NCBI RefSeq assembly: GCF_020622065.1 | Contig: NZ_JAHRYQ010000002.1 | Coordinates: 865,905 to 929,904, forward strand | Length of the DNA stretch: 64,000 nt | Direction: 5' to 3' | Origin: Geothrix sp. | GTDB taxonomy: Bacteria; Acidobacteriota; Holophagae; Holophagales; Holophagaceae | Shown here: in pieces, positions 13,698-27,909 of the stretch | Layout: the number at the start of each line of letters is the position of its first letter | How positions within the stretch are numbered: the first letter of the stretch is position 1 | Program-made: the position numbers and the translations under genes | Notes under the pieces: model-generated | Seen by the model: the letters and a program-made list of their open reading frames with translations, nothing else | Told to the model about the DNA's origin: nothing | The model's database searches: none

Positions 13698-14522
13698 TTA
13701 ATGCAGGAGCCGCAGGATCGCGCCGTCTTCCGGATGGGCCTGGCGGAGGGATTCGGGTCCGGACTGGTTCAGCACCTGGAATTGATTGAGGGCCACCACC
13801 TCCCGGGCGAGGCTCGCGTCGCGAATGGGACGGGCGGCCGCCGCGAGGGTTTCCGCCTGGATACCCAGGGCATTCGAGGCGGCACTCAGGTGCCGCTGCC
13901 CGGCGTCGAGGACGCTGCGTCGTGCGGAAAGGATCTCCAGGCCTTGGTGGATGGCACCGAGGTCCGCGGCAGGCCCATCGGCAGCCTCCGACTTCCCCAT
14001 CAGATCGAGGGAGCCCACCGGACCCACGGCGATGGTCACCCGCAGGTGATCGTCCATGACGATGCCCAGCTCTGACCCGAAGACGAGCTCGCCGTTGAAC
14101 CGGGTGTTCGCGTTGATCTCGTCGATGAGCGTCAGGATCTCCCGGAATTCCTCGTCAAGGACGGATGGGGCCCCGCCCGTTTTCTTCGGCCCGGCGGAGC
14201 CTGGCCCCAGCGCTCCCCCAGGGGCCTGCTCCGCGAGCTTGGCTGCGCGGGCCAACAGGGCGGTGATTTTCTGCATGCCTCCGGCAGCCACTTGGAGGTA
14301 CGAAAGACCATCGCTGGCGTGGCGGCGCCCCTGGGCGGCCAGGCGAACCTCGGCCCGCAGGCGCTGCTCGAAACCGGCATCCAGAGCCTTCCCCGCCGTC
14401 GGTCCCCCTGGCTGACCACCGATGAGCTGCTCCAATGCCCCCTCGAGGGTTGGACCGGAGAGGTGCATCTGATGGCGGGCGCGCCTGGCGGAAACGCTCT
14501 TCAGAACGGCTGTGCGCTTCAC
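13698..14522 (-). CDS. Flagellin-like protein encoded directly after nuoD
   Basis: A 274-residue protein that aligns by eye with both conserved ends of bacterial flagellin. N-terminal part: LEGALEQLIGG (flagellin LERLSSG) and GRRHASDGLSYLQVAAGGMQKITALLARAAKLAEQA (flagellin N-A-x-DGISLLQ...ELAVQA), then the EIxRI...FNG region as LIDEINANTRFNGELVFG. C-terminal part: LGAIHQGLEILSARRSVLDAGQRHL and RPIRDASLAREVVALNQFQVLNQSG. The central variable domain is almost absent. The GTG at 14522 has AAAGGA upstream. It is degenerate compared with true flagellins, so a filament role is uncertain. It may be co-transcribed with nuoABCD. Confidence 0.65.
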   Translation of the reverse strand: MKRTAVLKSVSARRARHQMHLSGPTLEGALEQLIGGQPGGPTAGKALDAGFEQRLRAEVRLAAQGRRHASDGLSYLQVAAGGMQKITALLARAAKLAEQAPGGALGPGSAGPKKTGGAPSVLDEEFREILTLIDEINANTRFNGELVFGSELGIVMDDHLRVTIAVGPVGSLDLMGKSEAADGPAADLGAIHQGLEILSARRSVLDAGQRHLSAASNALGIQAETLAAAARPIRDASLAREVVALNQFQVLNQSGPESLRQAHPEDGAILRLLH

Positions 14523-16309: not shown

Positions 16310-16918
16310 CTAGAAGATCGTGCCCGCGCCGCGGTCCGCGGCGTCCATCAGCATTTCGCGGATGGTCTGCTGGCTCGTGAGGCCCTTTTCGGCCTGGAGG
16401 GCATCCTGCCGGGCCAGGCTTTCGTAGAAGCGGGCGATGTGATCCTTGCGCATGGAGAGCGATTCCTTCTCGATCTTCTCCTGCAGCTTCATCACACCGT
16501 AGAGCATGCTTTCGGGCCGGGGGGGGCAGCCGGGGACATAGACATCCACGGGGATCACCCGGTCCACGCCCTGGAGGGTGGCGTAGGTGCGGTACATGCC
16601 GCCCGACGAGGCGCAGACGCCGAGGGAGATCACCCATTTGGGCTCGGCCATCTGGGCGTAGATCGTGCGCAGCACCGGGGCCAGCTTGTTGGTGACTGTG
16701 CCCAGGATCATCAGCATGTCGCTCTGGCGGGGGCTGAAGCGCATGGCCTCGGCGCCGAAGCGGCTCATGTCGTATTTGGAGGCCTGCATGCTCATGAACT
16801 CGATGGCGCAGCAGGCGGTCCCGAAGGGCAGAGGCCAGAGGCTGTTCTTGCGACCCCAGTTCACCACCGCATCCAGGCGGGTGGTCAGCACGGCGTCGTT
16901 GATGTTCATCTCGGCCAT
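16310..16918 (-). CDS. nuoB: NADH-quinone oxidoreductase subunit B
   Basis: A 202-residue subunit that binds the terminal N2 [4Fe-4S] cluster. The tandem cysteines appear in GTACCAIEFM (residues 36-37), and further ligands in LGVCASSGG (102) and VPGCPPRPE (131). Residues 150-202 form a somewhat longer C-terminal tail than the minimal family core. ATG at 16918, 2 bases after the nuoA stop. Confidence 0.95.
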   Translation of the reverse strand: MAEMNINDAVLTTRLDAVVNWGRKNSLWPLPFGTACCAIEFMSMQASKYDMSRFGAEAMRFSPRQSDMLMILGTVTNKLAPVLRTIYAQMAEPKWVISLGVCASSGGMYRTYATLQGVDRVIPVDVYVPGCPPRPESMLYGVMKLQEKIEKESLSMRKDHIARFYESLARQDALQAEKGLTSQQTIREMLMDAADRGAGTIF

Positions 16919-16920
16919 CG

Positions 16921-17301
16921 TCAGCGCTCCCACTCGAAGGCGCCCTTGCCCCAGGCGTAGATGAAGCCCACCAGAAGGGTGGCCATGAAGCTCAACATGG
17001 CTCCGAAGGTCCACAGGGCATGCTTGAAGTTCACGGCCCAGGGCAGCAGGAACGCCGCTTCCACATCGAACAGGATGAAGAGCATGGCCGTGAGGTAGAA
17101 CTTCACGGAGTACTTGTGCCGGGCACCCTGCTGCAGGGGAGGCACGCCGCACTCGTAGGGCCGGAGCTTGGCCTCCTGCGCGTTGGCGGGCTTGAGCAGG
17201 CTCAGCACCTTGCCCGACAGGAAGAGGATGGCGATGGCCGCCACGGCGGCGACCAGCAGCAGGATCAGGACCGGCAGGAAGGGCGATGCGGGATGGGCCA
17301 T
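16921..17301 (-). CDS. nuoA: NADH-quinone oxidoreductase subunit A
   Basis: A 126-residue membrane subunit with three transmembrane helices. It contains the conserved loop YECGVPP and the second-helix motif VKFYLTAMLFILFDVEAAFLLPWA, which are diagnostic of NuoA. It is the first gene of the nuoABCD run; the promoter should lie in 17302-17440, the gap shared with the divergent acyl-carrier-protein operon. Confidence 0.95.
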   Translation of the reverse strand: MAHPASPFLPVLILLLVAAVAAIAILFLSGKVLSLLKPANAQEAKLRPYECGVPPLQQGARHKYSVKFYLTAMLFILFDVEAAFLLPWAVNFKHALWTFGAMLSFMATLLVGFIYAWGKGAFEWER

Positions 17302-17440: not shown

Positions 17441-17698
17441 ATGAGCGACCTCAAGCTGCGCGTCAAAGAGATGATCATCGAGCGATTGAAGCTGGAGGGG
17501 ATGACGCCCGACCAGATCGAGGACCAGGCCCCCCTCTTCGGCGAGGGGCTGGGGCTCGATTCCATCGATGCCCTGGAGCTGGTGCTGGGCATCGAGCAGG
17601 TATTCGGGGTGAAGATCGAAGACGAAGCCGCAGGCATGAAGGCCTTCAAATCCGTCCAGGCCCTGACCGATTTCATCGCCGAGCACGCCAAGGCCTGA
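17441..17698 (+). CDS. Acyl carrier protein
   Basis: An 85-residue acidic four-helix carrier. The phosphopantetheine attachment serine is S41 in GLGLDSIDALEL. It starts a compact operon with a dehydratase, a ketosynthase, a ketosynthase-like partner and a SPOR protein, so it probably carries the growing chain for that set rather than being the housekeeping AcpP. The sequence is more like the ACPs of aryl-polyene and type II polyketide clusters than the classical AcpP (family knowledge, by eye). Confidence 0.88.
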   Translation: MSDLKLRVKEMIIERLKLEGMTPDQIEDQAPLFGEGLGLDSIDALELVLGIEQVFGVKIEDEAAGMKAFKSVQALTDFIAEHAKA

Positions 17699-17706
17699 AG
17701 CCGCCC

Positions 17707-18138
17707 ATGACTCCCGCCCCGGCCACTGTCCCGGCCGACATCCCGGCCCACCTGCCGCACCGCTATCCCTTCCTCCTGGTGGACCGGATCCTGGAGCGGG
17801 AGCCCGGTGTGCGGGTGGTGGCGGAAAAGCTCGTCACCATCGGCGAGCCCCATCTCCAGGGCCACTTCGAGGAGCGCCCGCTGGTGCCCGGGGTGCTGCT
17901 GCTGGAGATGCTGGCCCAGACCGGGGGATTCCTGGAAGCCGAGCCCCTGCATGGCGCGGCGATCTTCCTGGCCGGGGTGCAGGACGCCCGCTTCCGCGCC
18001 CCGGCCTTCCCGGGGGATCGGCTCCGCCTGGAAGTGACCCCGGAGGGCGCCTTCGCCGGGTTGATGAAGCTCAAGGGCACCGTGAGCTGCGAGGGCCGGG
18101 AGCTCTGCACCGCCCGTCTGCTGGTGAAGCGCCTATGA
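17707..18138 (+). CDS. FabZ-like 3-hydroxyacyl-ACP dehydratase
   Basis: A 143-residue hot-dog-fold protein. The start region LPHRYPFLLVDRILE and the active-site segment GHFEERPLVPGVLLLEMLAQTGG match FabZ; the catalytic pair would be His53 and Glu67. It removes water from 3-hydroxyacyl-ACP to give the trans-2-enoyl chain. Its stop overlaps the ketosynthase start by 4 bases (ATGA), showing translational coupling. Confidence 0.82.
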   Translation: MTPAPATVPADIPAHLPHRYPFLLVDRILEREPGVRVVAEKLVTIGEPHLQGHFEERPLVPGVLLLEMLAQTGGFLEAEPLHGAAIFLAGVQDARFRAPAFPGDRLRLEVTPEGAFAGLMKLKGTVSCEGRELCTARLLVKRL

Positions 18139-19319
18139 CCCGCTCCCGCGTCGTCGTCACGGGCCTCGGCATCGTCTCCTCCCTGGCCCTGGATCGGGAG
18201 GGCACCTGGTCCGCCATGCTCGCGGGACGGGATGGCCTGGACCGCCTCACGCGGCTGCACCTCCCCGCCGAGCCCGCCCAGATCGCCGGCCAGGTGGCCC
18301 TGGAGCCCACCCGGCACCAGACCCTGTGCGACCGCATGGCGCTGCGGGCCCTGGACGAGGCCCTGGACGGCCTGCGGCCGGAGGGCGACCCCGCCCGGAT
18401 CGGGGTCTTCCAGGGCGCCGGCACCAGCGGATTGCCGATCGCCGAGGCCTACCTGGAGGACCGCCTCGCCGGCCGGCGCGGCCAGGCGACGGGGCCCGCC
18501 TACCAGAGCCCCTGCACCGTCACGGATGCCCTGGCCGACCGCCTGGGGGCCACCGGGCCTCGGGGCACCATCATGAACGCCTGCTCCTCCAGCCTCCTGG
18601 CCCTGGGCCAGGCCTGGGAGCGGTTGGCCGCGGGCGAGCTGGACCTGGCCCTGGCCGGGGGCGCCGAAAGCCTCTGCCGCACCACCTACGCCGGCTTCTC
18701 CAGCCTCAAGGCCGTGGACGCCCGCAAGTGCCGCCCCTTCAGCCGGGACCGGGCGGGCCTGAACCTGGGCGAGGGGGCTGTGCAGATCCTCCTCGAGCCC
18801 CTGGAGCGCGCCAGGGCCCGGGGGGCGACGATCTACGCCGAGGTGCTGGGCTATGGCGCCAGCATGGACGCCCACCATCCCACGGCGCCGCACCCCGAAG
18901 GCGAGGGCGCCGCCCGGGCCCTCGCCATGGCCCTCCGCGTGGGCGGTCTCGAGCCTTCGGGGGTGGATCTCGTCTCGGCCCACGGCACCGCCACCCCCGC
19001 CAACGACGGGGCCGAGTGCCGGGCCATCCGCCGGGCCCTGGGCGCGGCCGCCGAGGCGGTCTCGGTCACCAGCACCAAGAGCCAGTTCGGCCACACCCTG
19101 GGCGCGGCCGGGGCCTTCGGAGCCGGCACCGCCATCCTGGCCCTGCGGGACCAGGTGGTGAGTCCCACCCTGCGCCTGGACGACCCTGATCCCGCCTGCG
19201 ATCTGGACTGCACGCCGCTGTCGGCGAAGGAACGGCGGATCCGCGCCGCCCTGGTGAACGCATTCGCCTTCGGGGGCAACAATGTGAGCCTCCTGCTGGC
19301 GCGCTGGGAGGGCTCGTGA
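18135..19319 (+). CDS. Beta-ketoacyl-ACP synthase (KS-alpha/FabF-like)
   Basis: A 394-residue thiolase-fold condensing enzyme with an intact triad: Cys150 in NACSSS, His283 in SAHGTATPANDGAE, and His320 in KSQFGHTLGAAGA. It catalyses decarboxylative Claisen condensation of malonyl-ACP with an acyl chain. It sits between the dehydratase and a ketosynthase-like gene lacking these residues, the arrangement of KS/chain-length-factor pairs in type II polyketide and aryl-polyene systems. Overlaps by 4 bases with both neighbours. Confidence 0.88.
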   Translation: MTRSRVVVTGLGIVSSLALDREGTWSAMLAGRDGLDRLTRLHLPAEPAQIAGQVALEPTRHQTLCDRMALRALDEALDGLRPEGDPARIGVFQGAGTSGLPIAEAYLEDRLAGRRGQATGPAYQSPCTVTDALADRLGATGPRGTIMNACSSSLLALGQAWERLAAGELDLALAGGAESLCRTTYAGFSSLKAVDARKCRPFSRDRAGLNLGEGAVQILLEPLERARARGATIYAEVLGYGASMDAHHPTAPHPEGEGAARALAMALRVGGLEPSGVDLVSAHGTATPANDGAECRAIRRALGAAAEAVSVTSTKSQFGHTLGAAGAFGAGTAILALRDQVVSPTLRLDDPDPACDLDCTPLSAKERRIRAALVNAFAFGGNNVSLLLARWEGS

Positions 19320-20416
19320 GCCCGGAGCGGACGGACCTCGTCATCACGGGCCTGGGCCTGGTCCTGCCCTGCGGAGATGGCCTCGGCCCGGCCCGCGCCA
19401 GCCTGGCCTCGGGCCAGCCCTGCTTCGCGGATCTGCCGGAGACCCTGGGCCTGGGACGCGGTGCGGCCTGCACCGCCTTCAATCCCACGGGCATCATCCC
19501 GCCCATGCAGCTGCGGCGCCTGGACCGGGCCTCGCGCTTCGCCTGGGTGGCGGCCCATCAGGCCTTCCTGGACGCGGGGCTCGATCCGAAATCCGACACC
19601 CTGGGCGCGGGGGAGCGCATCGCCGTGGCCGTGGGCACCCTCACGGGCGGCAGCGAGGCCAGCGAGGCCTTCATGCGGCCCTACCTCCAGCGGGGGCCCG
19701 AAGGCGCGTCGCCCATGGTCTTTCCCAACTGCGTCGCCAACGCCGCCAGCGGCCACCTGGCCCTCGCCTTCGGATTGAAGGGCCCCAGCGCCACCTTCGT
19801 GGACCGGGAGAACGCCGCGTTCACCGCCCTGGAACAGGCGGGCCGCTGGCTCCACGCCGGGCTGGCCGACGCCGCGCTGGTCCTCGGCACGGATGGTCTC
19901 TTCCCCCTGCTCCTCGACATCTGCCGGGGCGCTCGGCTGCTGAGCCGCCATGGAGATCCCGTTCCGGGCTCGAACCAGGGCTTCCTGCCGGGTGAGGGGG
20001 CACAGGCCTTCCTGCTGGAGACCCGGTCCAGCGCAGAGGCCCGGGGCGCCCACCCCCGGGCGACCCTGCGCGGCCTGGCCTGCCGGTCCACGCCCGGACC
20101 GGGGGAAGCGGAGCGGGCCGGGGCCCTGGCCCAAGCGGCCCTGACCCTGGGCGATCGCGTCGTGGCGCGGCGGATCGGAGGCAGCAACGGCCTGCGGCGC
20201 CTCGACGCGCTGGAGTCGCAGCTGGCCAAGGCCCACCCCCAGTGGCCCGCGGCAGTTCATCCCAAGGCGCTCTGGGGCGAGTTCGGCGGGTCGGGCGGCC
20301 AGCTGCTGGCCGCGGCCCTGCTGGAGCCGGCGGAGCAAGTGCTCGTCAGCGCCCCCGCCAGTTCCGGAGCCCAGTTCGCGGCGCTCCTCGAAGGCGTTAG
20401 GCTGGATCGGCCATGA
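19316..20416 (+). CDS. Ketosynthase-like protein lacking the catalytic triad (chain-length-factor-like)
   Basis: A 366-residue thiolase-fold protein beginning at GTG 19316 inside the previous stop (GTGA). It keeps the fold markers (TDLVITGLGLVLPCGDG near the N-terminus, FGLKGPSATF before the nucleophile elbow, GEFGGSGGQLLAAALL near the end). The nucleophile position reads FVDRENAAF, with Glu/Asn where Cys is expected, and both histidine motifs are gone. In type II polyketide synthases such a partner (KS-beta or CLF) forms a heterodimer with the active ketosynthase and sets chain length. That role is inferred. Confidence 0.7.
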   Translation: MSPERTDLVITGLGLVLPCGDGLGPARASLASGQPCFADLPETLGLGRGAACTAFNPTGIIPPMQLRRLDRASRFAWVAAHQAFLDAGLDPKSDTLGAGERIAVAVGTLTGGSEASEAFMRPYLQRGPEGASPMVFPNCVANAASGHLALAFGLKGPSATFVDRENAAFTALEQAGRWLHAGLADAALVLGTDGLFPLLLDICRGARLLSRHGDPVPGSNQGFLPGEGAQAFLLETRSSAEARGAHPRATLRGLACRSTPGPGEAERAGALAQAALTLGDRVVARRIGGSNGLRRLDALESQLAKAHPQWPAAVHPKALWGEFGGSGGQLLAAALLEPAEQVLVSAPASSGAQFAALLEGVRLDRP

Positions 20417-20937
20417 CGACCCGCGATCAGATCAGCATCGGCAGCCAGTCCATCCTCTGGGTGGCGGGCGTGGGCGTGGGCCTGCTGACCCTCGCCTTCG
20501 TCCTGGGTGTGCAGGTGGGCAAGCAGAGCGCGGCCCTGCGCCGCCCGCTCCAGAAGGGCGTCGAGGAGGAGCTGAAGGACCTGCCCGAACCGCTGGTGGA
20601 CCAGCTCAAGATTTTCGAGGGCGACGGCCCCGACAAGCTGGTGCCCACGCCGAAGGTCGATGCCACCGCCCCCCCCCGGGACGAGGCGAAACCCGAGCCG
20701 AAGCCCGCCGAGACGGGAGGCGCCTGGACGCTTCAGCTGGTGGCCACCGCCGACCCGGCCGAAGCCAAGCGGGTGGCCGACAAAGCCAAGGCCGCGGGCT
20801 TCGCCACCACCACCCTGAAGGACAAGGGCCAGGTGAAGGTGCGCCTCGCGAAACCCGCCGACCGCGCGGCCATGGACAAGGCCGCCGCCAAGCTCACGAA
20901 AGCCGGCATGAAGCCCTTCGCCGTGAAGGTGGAGTAG
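20413..20937 (+). CDS. SPOR-domain membrane protein
   Basis: A 174-residue protein: a short cytoplasmic start, one transmembrane helix (about residues 13-35, ILWVAGVGVGLLTLAFVLGV), a Pro/Glu/Lys-rich linker, and a C-terminal SPOR-like domain (WTLQLVATADPAEAKRVADKAKAAGF ... KPFAVKVE). SPOR domains bind denuded septal peptidoglycan. Translationally coupled (4-base overlap) to the ketosynthase-like gene, an unusual partner for a lipid or polyketide operon. Confidence 0.75.
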   Translation: MTTRDQISIGSQSILWVAGVGVGLLTLAFVLGVQVGKQSAALRRPLQKGVEEELKDLPEPLVDQLKIFEGDGPDKLVPTPKVDATAPPRDEAKPEPKPAETGGAWTLQLVATADPAEAKRVADKAKAAGFATTTLKDKGQVKVRLAKPADRAAMDKAAAKLTKAGMKPFAVKVE

Positions 20938-25934: not shown

Positions 25935-27202
25935 ACCACCCCGCCCCCAGGAACCGAACCGCCCTGCGGCTGGTGAGCCGATGCCTGTGCTTGGGCCTGG
26001 GCTTGGGCCTGGTCCTGGCCTGCGCCCGGGAGGACCGCGCGGCCCTGAACCGCCGCAGCATGGCCCCTTCTCCCCGCAGCGGCTGGGCGCGGCTCTCCCT
26101 GGATGCCGACGCCCAGCGGCAGATGAAGGGCGCCTGGATCGGCGACGAGGCCGGCAGGAGCATCCCCTTCCAGGAGGCCCGCGAGGGCCTGTGGGACACG
26201 CGGGCCCTGCCCCTGGAGAACCTCCTCACCGGCAGGAATGCCGAGGGCCAGCCCACGGCGGAGTTCTCGCTGCGGCTGCCCGAAGGCTGGAAGGTGGGCG
26301 AGCGGGAGACCCTCAGGCTCGACCTCGATCTCGAGGGCCAGACGCCCTGGGTGGCCCAGGTCCAAGCGGAACGACGGATCGAAGACGGAAGCCAAGGGGG
26401 CGCCTTCATCGCCTACGATCCCGCCGCGCCGCTCCACCTCTACGATCTCTCCCCCTCCGGCAGCCGCCGCACCCTCAACCTTCCCTGGGATGGCCACCGC
26501 TACCGCCTCACCCTCCTCCCCTCCCAGGGAACGGCCCCGCACATCCGCCGCGTGCAGGCCTACGCCGAGACGCGACCCGAGGCCCTGGAAGCCGAACTGG
26601 CCCTCGAGGGCACCCTTGCGCCCGAGCCCGGCCGACCGCGCACCTGGCGTCTGACCCTGCCGGACGCGGAGCGTGTGGTGGGCCTGGACCTGGTGCTGGC
26701 GCCCCCGGCAGCCCCCCTTCATCCCGAGATCCGTTTTGGGGACGGTCCCGAATCGGAGCGCGGCTGGGCCTGCCAGGATCTGGTGTGGAACCTCCCGGCC
26801 CTCGGCACGAGATCCAGCCGCATCGCTCTGGCACCGGTGCTGACAAAGACGCTCACGGTGAGCTTGCCCGAGGGCGCCGCGCCCCAGAGCCTGCGGCTCC
26901 TCGTCCGGCGGCAGACCCTGATCTTCCCGGCGGAAGCGGGCCGATCCTACGCCCTGCACCTCGGCGGCGAGGCCAAACCCGCCCCTGGCAGCCTCGGTGC
27001 CCTTCCCTCGCTCCGCGTCCTGGCCGCCACTGCGCCCCTCGCCCTGGGCCCCCGCGAACCCGACGATCAGGGCATTCCCCACCGCATCGGGGCCGACCAG
27101 CGCGCCCGGCCCTGGATGCCCTGGATCGCCGGTCTCGCCATGCTGATCCTCGGAGGCCTCGCCTGGCGGTTGTTCGGGCGGGCCGAGCACCCCCAAGCAT
27201 GA
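25931..27202 (+). CDS. DUF3999-like lipoprotein
   Basis: A 423-residue protein with a long hydrophobic leader ending in a lipobox (LGLVLAC, Cys about residue 31), a beta-rich periplasmic body, and one C-terminal transmembrane helix (PWMPWIAGLAMLILGGLAWRLF). Position after DUF2339 and general layout fit DUF3999, though the sequence similarity is judged only by eye. ATGA overlaps join it to both neighbours. Confidence 0.55.
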   Translation: MNHPAPRNRTALRLVSRCLCLGLGLGLVLACAREDRAALNRRSMAPSPRSGWARLSLDADAQRQMKGAWIGDEAGRSIPFQEAREGLWDTRALPLENLLTGRNAEGQPTAEFSLRLPEGWKVGERETLRLDLDLEGQTPWVAQVQAERRIEDGSQGGAFIAYDPAAPLHLYDLSPSGSRRTLNLPWDGHRYRLTLLPSQGTAPHIRRVQAYAETRPEALEAELALEGTLAPEPGRPRTWRLTLPDAERVVGLDLVLAPPAAPLHPEIRFGDGPESERGWACQDLVWNLPALGTRSSRIALAPVLTKTLTVSLPEGAAPQSLRLLVRRQTLIFPAEAGRSYALHLGGEAKPAPGSLGALPSLRVLAATAPLALGPREPDDQGIPHRIGADQRARPWMPWIAGLAMLILGGLAWRLFGRAEHPQA

Positions 27203-27909
27203 AGTTTCGCACCTGCCTCTGGATGGGCTTGGCCCTGGCAGGACTGGCCTGCCGCTCGCCGCTGAGTGACCTTCAGATCCAGCGGGAGAGGCCCGCCCTC
27301 TCCCTGAGTGTCGCGATCGAGGACCACAGCCGGAAGCTGGCGCGGCTGCAGGAACCGCTCGGGCAGGTGGATTCGCCCGCCTCCCGCCGGGCGGCCCTGG
27401 AAGGCCACCGCCAGGCCTTCGAGGCCGAGCTCCGGGCTGAGGCTGCCGCGCGTGGCCTTCGGCTGGACCCCGGCGCGGACCTTCAGCTGGACCTGACCAT
27501 CACCAGCCTGGGGGAAGTTCGGGCCAAATACATCGCCTGGGGCATTGTCAGCGGCGTGGCCTGGGGCGCCGGGGTTGGCCTGCTCGCCCATGACACGCGC
27601 CTCGCAGTGGGACTTGGCACCTACGAGCTGCTGGAGGAAAGTGCCTTCTGGATCGGCGGGTCCATGCTCATGGGCCGCTGGTCCTCCCCCGCCGTAGTGG
27701 AGGCGGGCTTCACCCGCAGAGGATCAGACAAGCCCCTGTGGGACGAGACATACTATGTGTTGTGGGCCCGCAAGGAACTGGGAGCCCTGCCCGCGAATGA
27801 GCAGAACCGGCGCGAGCGCCAGCTGCAGGCCTCGCTCCGCAAGGCCATGGGCAAGCTGTTCAAGGACCTAGAAGCCATCCCCGGTTTTCCGGCAGGCGGG
27901 ATGAAGTAG
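27199..27909 (+). CDS. Lipoprotein of unknown function
   Basis: A 236-residue protein with a lipoprotein signal (LALAGLAC, Cys18). The mature part has a charged alpha-helical region (about 40-105), then a glycine/alanine hydrophobic stretch (IAWGIVSGVAWGAGVGLLAH) and a C-terminal part ending in a charged helix. No known domain recognised. Third gene of the DUF2339 operon by 4-base overlap, so a shared envelope role is likely. Confidence 0.55.
   Translation: MKFRTCLWMGLALAGLACRSPLSDLQIQRERPALSLSVAIEDHSRKLARLQEPLGQVDSPASRRAALEGHRQAFEAELRAEAAARGLRLDPGADLQLDLTITSLGEVRAKYIAWGIVSGVAWGAGVGLLAHDTRLAVGLGTYELLEESAFWIGGSMLMGRWSSPAVVEAGFTRRGSDKPLWDETYYVLWARKELGALPANEQNRRERQLQASLRKAMGKLFKDLEAIPGFPAGGMK

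Follow-up and report, generated by a model that had tools for sequence, protein, structure and literature searches.

A compact operon beside nuoA in Geothrix as a possible minimal type II synthase of the ketosynthase–chain-length-factor class

Results

In this study, we analysed a 64,000-nucleotide stretch of the genome of Geothrix sp. (assembly GCF_020622065.1, contig NZ_JAHRYQ010000002.1, positions 865,905 to 929,904), here called the window. At 17441–20937 it carries a five-gene operon for an acyl carrier protein (ACP), a FabZ-like hotdog protein, a β-ketoacyl-ACP synthase (KS), a KS-like partner resembling a chain-length factor (CLF) and a transmembrane (TM) protein with a SPOR domain (Table 1). 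As a preliminary description of the locus had stated, all five open reading frames (ORFs) are present and closely joined, with 8 bases between the ACP and hotdog genes and 4-base overlaps at 18135/18138, 19316/19319 and 20413/20416; its statement that ketoreductase (KR), acyltransferase and ammonia lyase are missing is borne out within the operon itself. Each product scores above the cut-off of its Pfam family, and the NCBIfam assignments are consistent with these domains; the Pfam scores are 42 bits for PP-binding, 76 for FabA/FabZ and 49.6 for SPOR; the KS matches both the N- and C-terminal ketoacyl-synt domains (108 and 112 bits) and the CLF the N-terminal one only (83 bits). A promoter and terminator pattern search at the operon gave no matches and was uninformative.

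Table 1. The operon and its divergent neighbours in window coordinates
Feature	Position	Strand	Characteristics	Family
ApeE-like ACP	17441..17698	+	85 aa; pantetheine serine in FGEGLGLDSIDALEL	PP-binding Pfam
FabZ-like hotdog protein	17707..18138	+	143 aa; intact His53 (GHF..PLVPGV), Glu67	
β-Ketoacyl-ACP synthase (KS)	18135..19319	+	C150/H283/K315/H320 intact; gate motif FAFGGNN, ApeO-like	
Chain-length-factor-like KS partner (CLF)	19316..20416	+	366 aa; GTG start; Cys to Glu165, His to Gly, His to Glu322	
TM-SPOR protein	20413..20937	+	174 aa; short cytoplasmic segment, one TM helix, linker, SPOR domain	
nuoB and nuoA	16310..17301	-	divergent neighbours; mark the syntenic site	

The contents of the source genome (3.35 Mb in two contigs; G000) were probed by family searches only, and its named relatives are Geothrix and other Holophagaceae, Acidobacteriota. 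The ketoacyl-synthase family comprises one housekeeping FabF (C1:1208028), the KS and CLF of the window and two weak, short matches that are probably thiolases; a single additional member of each of the FabA/FabZ and PP-binding families lies elsewhere. A housekeeping AcpP gene (C1:1207695) adjoins that of FabF, and a housekeeping fabZ lies at C1:1750782. We therefore reject the possibility, raised at the outset as the one that would reduce the operon to housekeeping fatty-acid synthesis (FAS), that these genes are the only fabF, fabZ and acpP of the genome, and regard the operon as a second set. It shares with the type II FAS enzymes FabF, FabZ and AcpP the fold and catalytic residues of its KS and dehydratase; it differs from them in having a catalytically dead KS partner and an ACP that is only 30 % identical to the AcpP of the same genome. 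Since a search for the ACPS family gave one match only, the housekeeping phosphopantetheinyl transferase probably serves both ACPs.

The KS residues Cys150, His283, Lys315 and His320 are invariant across relatives, and a residue-by-residue alignment to FabF, FabB and ApeO showed that its gate loop, FAFGGNN, is of the Escherichia coli ApeO type, whereas FabF and FabB read FGFGGTN. Overall identity is 38–41 % to FabF and 38 % to ApeO. The CLF has lost the nucleophilic Cys (now Glu), the first His (Gly) and the second His (Glu), and the same three replacements recur throughout the family, a sister genus included, and also in a homologue of 35 % identity that belongs to another acidobacterial family. 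Its predicted model (mean pLDDT 68.5, so that detail is unreliable) aligns over its full length, 331–337 residues, to β-ketoacyl-ACP synthases I and II (KAS I/II) at Z of about 31–32 and a root-mean-square deviation (rmsd) of 4.5–5; the comparison does not discriminate among them, as the top rows are all KAS I/II tied at Z 31–32. An active KS with the Cys-His-His triad and Lys thus stands next to a paralogous partner without catalytic residues and, judged by these sequence features, the operon is a KS–CLF synthase in the broad sense. Searches of plasmids returned generic FabF or type II polyketide synthase (PKS) matches only, all below 46 % identity. At nine loci (L043, L063, L064, L067, L068, L071, L079, L080 and L102) the KS and CLF genes appear to be 130–420 bases apart instead of overlapping by 4 bases. 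This is partly an artefact of start-codon choice; at L043 and L067 the CLF N terminus aligns fully, and an insert between the two genes is therefore possible.

The operon ACP is 48 % identical to ApeE of E. coli CFT073 and 30 % to ApeF, and it exceeds the cut-off of the NCBIfam model PRK09184 narrowly (71.4 against 70 bits). Its best match in the PDB, far ahead of AcpP structures, is 9ls6. Across Holophagaceae it is 78–99 % identical, and it qualifies as the ApeE-type ACP that characterizes aryl-polyene (ape) clusters.

The hotdog protein of the window scores as a FabZ equivalog (129.9 bits against a cut-off of 113), and its predicted structure is closest to FabZ 4h4g (Z 18.5, rmsd 2.0, 127 residues aligned), with the ApeI:ApeP entry 6qsr also among the matches (Z 15.7). 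It has the His-Glu active-site pair of FabZ (H53, E67), and the His of this pair has been lost in at least four relatives. The catalytic His, which lies in GHF..PxxPGV, is present in 39 of 42 aligned homologues; the segment bearing it is deleted in G. fermentans (L075), L088 and G. rubra (L100). These represent three lineages in the KS+CLF tree, in each of which the sister branches still have the His or at least a degraded form of the motif (L070/L072/L102; L096), and a fourth case, G040 (L051), lies outside that tree. Glu67 is kept in all homologues, the frames are open, and dN/dS is 0.2–0.4 in pairs with a His-less member. E. coli ApeP, read directly, likewise has no canonical GHF..PGV motif and retains the Glu, and among hotdog proteins encoded beside ApeE-like ACPs in other acidobacterial families the motif is gone in eight (L146–L149, L152, L154, L155 and L158) and kept in L151. 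For these reasons the protein is probably needed for something beyond the chemistry of its His, if only in some lineages of the phylum.

Of the 46 Geothrix genomes searched, 40 encode a highly identical CLF, and the six without it are mostly incomplete or fragmented assemblies. Four further genera of the family also carry the operon (G048, with a CLF of 60 % identity, and, by their ACP, G330, G158 and G196); it is absent from G047 and G218, and G142 and G315 have other ACP-KS-CLF arrangements. The order ACP-hotdog-KS-CLF-SPOR beside nuoA is kept in 43 named homologous loci, contig ends excepted, and the 4-base hotdog–KS overlap in 41 of 41. Conservation of this order and overlap across loci, along vertical lines of descent, puts the arrangement beyond chance. 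All five genes are under purifying selection, since dN/dS in close pairs is 0–0.17 for the ACP, 0.11–0.25 for the KS, 0.15–0.49 for the CLF, 0.11–0.42 for the hotdog protein and 0.11–0.26 for the SPOR protein (NG86, a simple method applied here to short genes).

A scan of 297 Acidobacteriota genomes with a profile of the ACP, in which proteins above 60 bits were taken as ApeE-like and ordinary AcpP mostly scored about 34–44, found ApeE-like ACPs in 46 genomes outside Holophagaceae. Three loci (L149, L152 and L155) encode GT2, a DUF3473/polysaccharide deacetylase, FabD, FabG, the ACP and a His-less hotdog protein; another has FabG-ACP-FabZ-KS (L151). An AMP-ligase accompanies ACP-hotdog-KS-CLF-GT2 at L158 and ACP-KS-CLF-GT2 with an MMPL/lipid-A-acyltransferase fusion at L157, and one genome has AMP-ligase-KS-CLF (L056) and GT2-deacetylase-FabG-ACP-hotdog (L154) in two places. 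Distant acidobacterial ACP or KS–CLF loci thus carry functions that are missing from the Geothrix operon. Loci L149, L152 and L155, from other acidobacterial families, are divergent from nuoA and so match the Geothrix site; at L155, PilZ/response-regulator genes, STAS genes and then a further 766-aa ORF come after the ACP locus.

In Geothrix itself, AMP-ligase homologues are unlinked and at best 28–32 % identical, with no orthologue evident. The GT2 homologue was rejected as a linked missing gene, as its region (C1:990500-1010400) holds no synthase genes and encodes an M61-like protease, RNase HII, a MutT-type protein and TolB/Pal/YbgF-like proteins. A single enzyme of the aromatic-amino-acid-lyase family (496 aa, 613 bits), whose family match fits a histidine or a tyrosine type, is encoded at G000:C1:1874330-1875679 (L187), beside an MFS transporter and an HD-type protein.

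The operon is flanked on the left by the divergent nuoABCD genes and on the right by a convergent gene for an NFACT-type protein, followed by those for a response-regulator/GGDEF protein and a DUF2339 protein. A flagellin N/C-domain protein is encoded amid the nuo genes, between nuoD and marR (13698–14522, minus strand); unlike the neighbouring genes, it is either lacking in other Geothrix or no more than 33–43 % identical there. Beyond the DUF2339 gene, on its 3' side, adjacent ORFs of 400 and 236 aa (26002–27909, plus strand) have no Pfam match at an E-value of 0.001.

Discussion

The reading that we favour, with some reserve, is that the five genes specify a dedicated, minimal type II synthase of the highly reducing kind that is inherited vertically and borrows enzymes of FAS to make one specialised acyl or polyene chain. 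The ApeE-like ACP, activated by the single ACPS-family transferase, would carry the starter and the growing chain, and a KS–CLF heterodimer would condense malonyl units loaded through the housekeeping FabD. Chain-length setting by the CLF is established for the KS–CLF class and would be its role here. Keto reduction would be left to the housekeeping FabG, whereas the hotdog protein would dehydrate or, in several species, only bind, with the housekeeping FabZ dehydrating where the hotdog His has been lost. A polyene would result without enoyl reduction and a saturated chain with FabI. We infer the pairing of KS with CLF, the borrowing, and the class and destination of the product, which is likely to be a single acyl chain, polyene-like or unusual in some other way, that the family makes constitutively for a lipid of the cell envelope. 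The SPOR protein would be co-transcribed and probably acts separately, at the division site or on peptidoglycan.

Among known systems, highly reducing type II PKSs such as ishigamide Iga11–Iga12 (6kxd) likewise combine a KS with a full-length, dead KS-like partner, and sequence searches with the KS and with the CLF both matched the ketosynthase of known structure, 6kxd. Such systems are usually clustered with a KR and a dehydratase, functions that in the Geothrix operon would be borrowed or are missing. The proposed synthase is supported by the existence of housekeeping acpP-fabF and fabZ besides the operon genes, the intact KS with its dead partner, the ApeE-like ACP, the conservation of the operon, the low dN/dS of the ACP and the KS, and the fuller gene sets of the distant acidobacterial loci. 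There is precedent in the cispentacin cassette for the borrowing of FabD and FabI (PMC10698177), and in the ApeO–ApeC pair for full elongation of a polyene by these two proteins alone (PMC8358021). Four observations weigh against it. In a tree of 21 rows the KS groups with ApeO (support 88/97), but at an open fork and too weakly for firm placement; the nearest NCBIfam model to the KS is that of FabF, though the score is well under the cut-off; the Geothrix operon has no linked acyltransferase, exporter or ligase; and, at least in the four species whose hotdog protein has lost its His, a polyene made by way of this dehydratase becomes less likely.

A less probable alternative is an accessory, FabF-like fatty-acid elongation that supplies an unusual, for example long or branched, acyl chain to membrane lipids or lipopolysaccharide, and no polyene. 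This would agree with the best scores of the KS and FabZ-like proteins, which are with FabF and FabZ models, with the tolerated loss of the hotdog His and with vertical, core-genome inheritance, as expected of primary lipid metabolism. Against it, type II PKSs and not FAS are marked by a dead partner of the CLF type together with an ACP of the ApeE type, and in the distant relatives the genes stand with those for AMP-ligases, GT2 and MMPL.

The preliminary description had proposed an aryl-polyene-like or type II PKS core. The ApeE-like ACP, the FabZ-like protein, the active KS and the dead CLF uphold this in its general form, but membership of the aryl-polyene family proper does not hold. The operon resembles the ape clusters of E. 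coli CFT073 and Xenorhabdus doucetiae in its ApeE-like ACP, the FAFGGNN gate of its KS, the dead KS partner and a hotdog protein of the FabZ/FabA family, and some Geothrix hotdog proteins resemble ApeP in the motif lost and the Glu kept. It differs in the absence, in and around the operon, of a second ACP, the second KS ApeR, the KR ApeQ, ApeI, a ligase, an MMPL transporter and acyltransferases. Moreover, the ape clusters are accessory and have a half-size CLF, whereas the operon belongs to the core genome and its CLF is full-length, the 240-aa E. coli ApeC and the 366-aa CLF of the window sharing 25 % identity over 234 positions. ApeC is half-size in the ApeO–ApeC pair, which alone elongates the polyene fully in vitro (PMC8358021). 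Full ape clusters (ApeC-D-E-F-I-J-K-O-P-Q-R) occur at another locus alongside the compact operon in two Geothrix genomes, G041 and G044; the operon is therefore a system distinct from the aryl-polyene cluster of the genus. The full or near-full clusters are L161 (G041:C3:142400-162300), L162 (G044:C1:50100-70000) and, in another genus of the family, L160 (G142:C1:761000-780900). That the operon nevertheless belongs to a true ape pathway, with its remaining genes elsewhere in the genome, is improbable. The lyase at C1:1874330, of the HAL/TAL family, would fit such a pathway, as would the ApeE-like ACP and the ApeO-like gate, but the genome has no member of the ApeI family, and neither an MMPL protein nor an AMP-ligase nor a lipid acyltransferase is linked to the operon; the closest GT2 homologue lies in the MutT/RNase HII/Tol-Pal-like region. 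In the literature we found no paper that combines Geothrix with aryl polyene, or Geothrix rubra with pigment; papers retrieved for Geothrix and biosynthetic gene clusters concern different organisms or the phylum as a whole.

It is very improbable that the SPOR gene forms one functional unit with the synthase and places enzymes or product at the septum. The SPOR gene follows that of the CLF in all 42 loci with both ends visible, with a 4- or 1-base overlap in 24 of them, and the TM-SPOR protein itself is conserved. The linkage to which the preliminary description drew attention is thus conserved; it is, however, no stronger than the general synteny, as the nuo, marR, yceI, NFACT and GGDEF neighbours are conserved just as well. 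Three or four further SPOR-family matches lie elsewhere in the genome, two of them about 1 kb apart at G000:C1:1711544-1712715. Given the equal conservation of the neighbourhood and these other matches, septal placement of a product cannot be argued from the linkage, and that part of the earlier proposal is unsupported. In six loci 71–1507 bases separate the CLF and SPOR genes, with the widest gap, outside Geothrix, enclosing an ORF (L099), and SPOR is absent from the more distant ACP/KS–CLF loci examined. The SPOR domain is also expected to be periplasmic and the synthase cytoplasmic.

There is equally little to recommend a small-ring cassette of the cispentacin/coronafacate (Amc/Cfa) type, which has the same parts in one operon (ACP, hotdog protein, KS and dead partner) and relies on FAS enzymes, borrowing the host FabD and FabI in the case of cispentacin (PMC10698177): the operon scores far under the cut-offs of the NCBIfam models for this type (AmcB 40.6 against 80, AmcE 54.8 against 140, AmcF 199 against 325, AmcG 15 against 80), lacks an AmcH-like ligase and has, in place of the small cyclisation factor AmcG (a model of 157 positions), a 366-aa partner with a full KS-like fold.

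On a wider view, which we put forward tentatively and rate as rather doubtful, Acidobacteriota might share an old, partly core-genome lipid pathway, often beside nuoA, that combines an ApeE-like ACP with a non-catalytic pseudo-dehydratase hotdog as ACP partner. Holophagaceae would have reduced it to ACP-hotdog-KS-CLF, wholly dependent on FAS enzymes in trans, and would use it to make a constitutive, undescribed envelope lipid.

KS–CLF synthases are usually accessory secondary-metabolite genes; the candidate synthase described here is fixed in one genus and several sister genera and is inherited vertically beside respiratory complex I. Stripped of every enzyme that FAS could lend, the operon would offer a naturally minimal system in which to ask how far borrowing can go in highly reducing type II synthesis. 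The hotdog gene, kept under purifying selection through repeated losses of the His, allows the idea of non-catalytic hotdog partners like ApeP to be tested directly. If the proposed synthase is correct, the operon predicts an undescribed lipid in widespread iron-reducing bacteria of soil and sediment.

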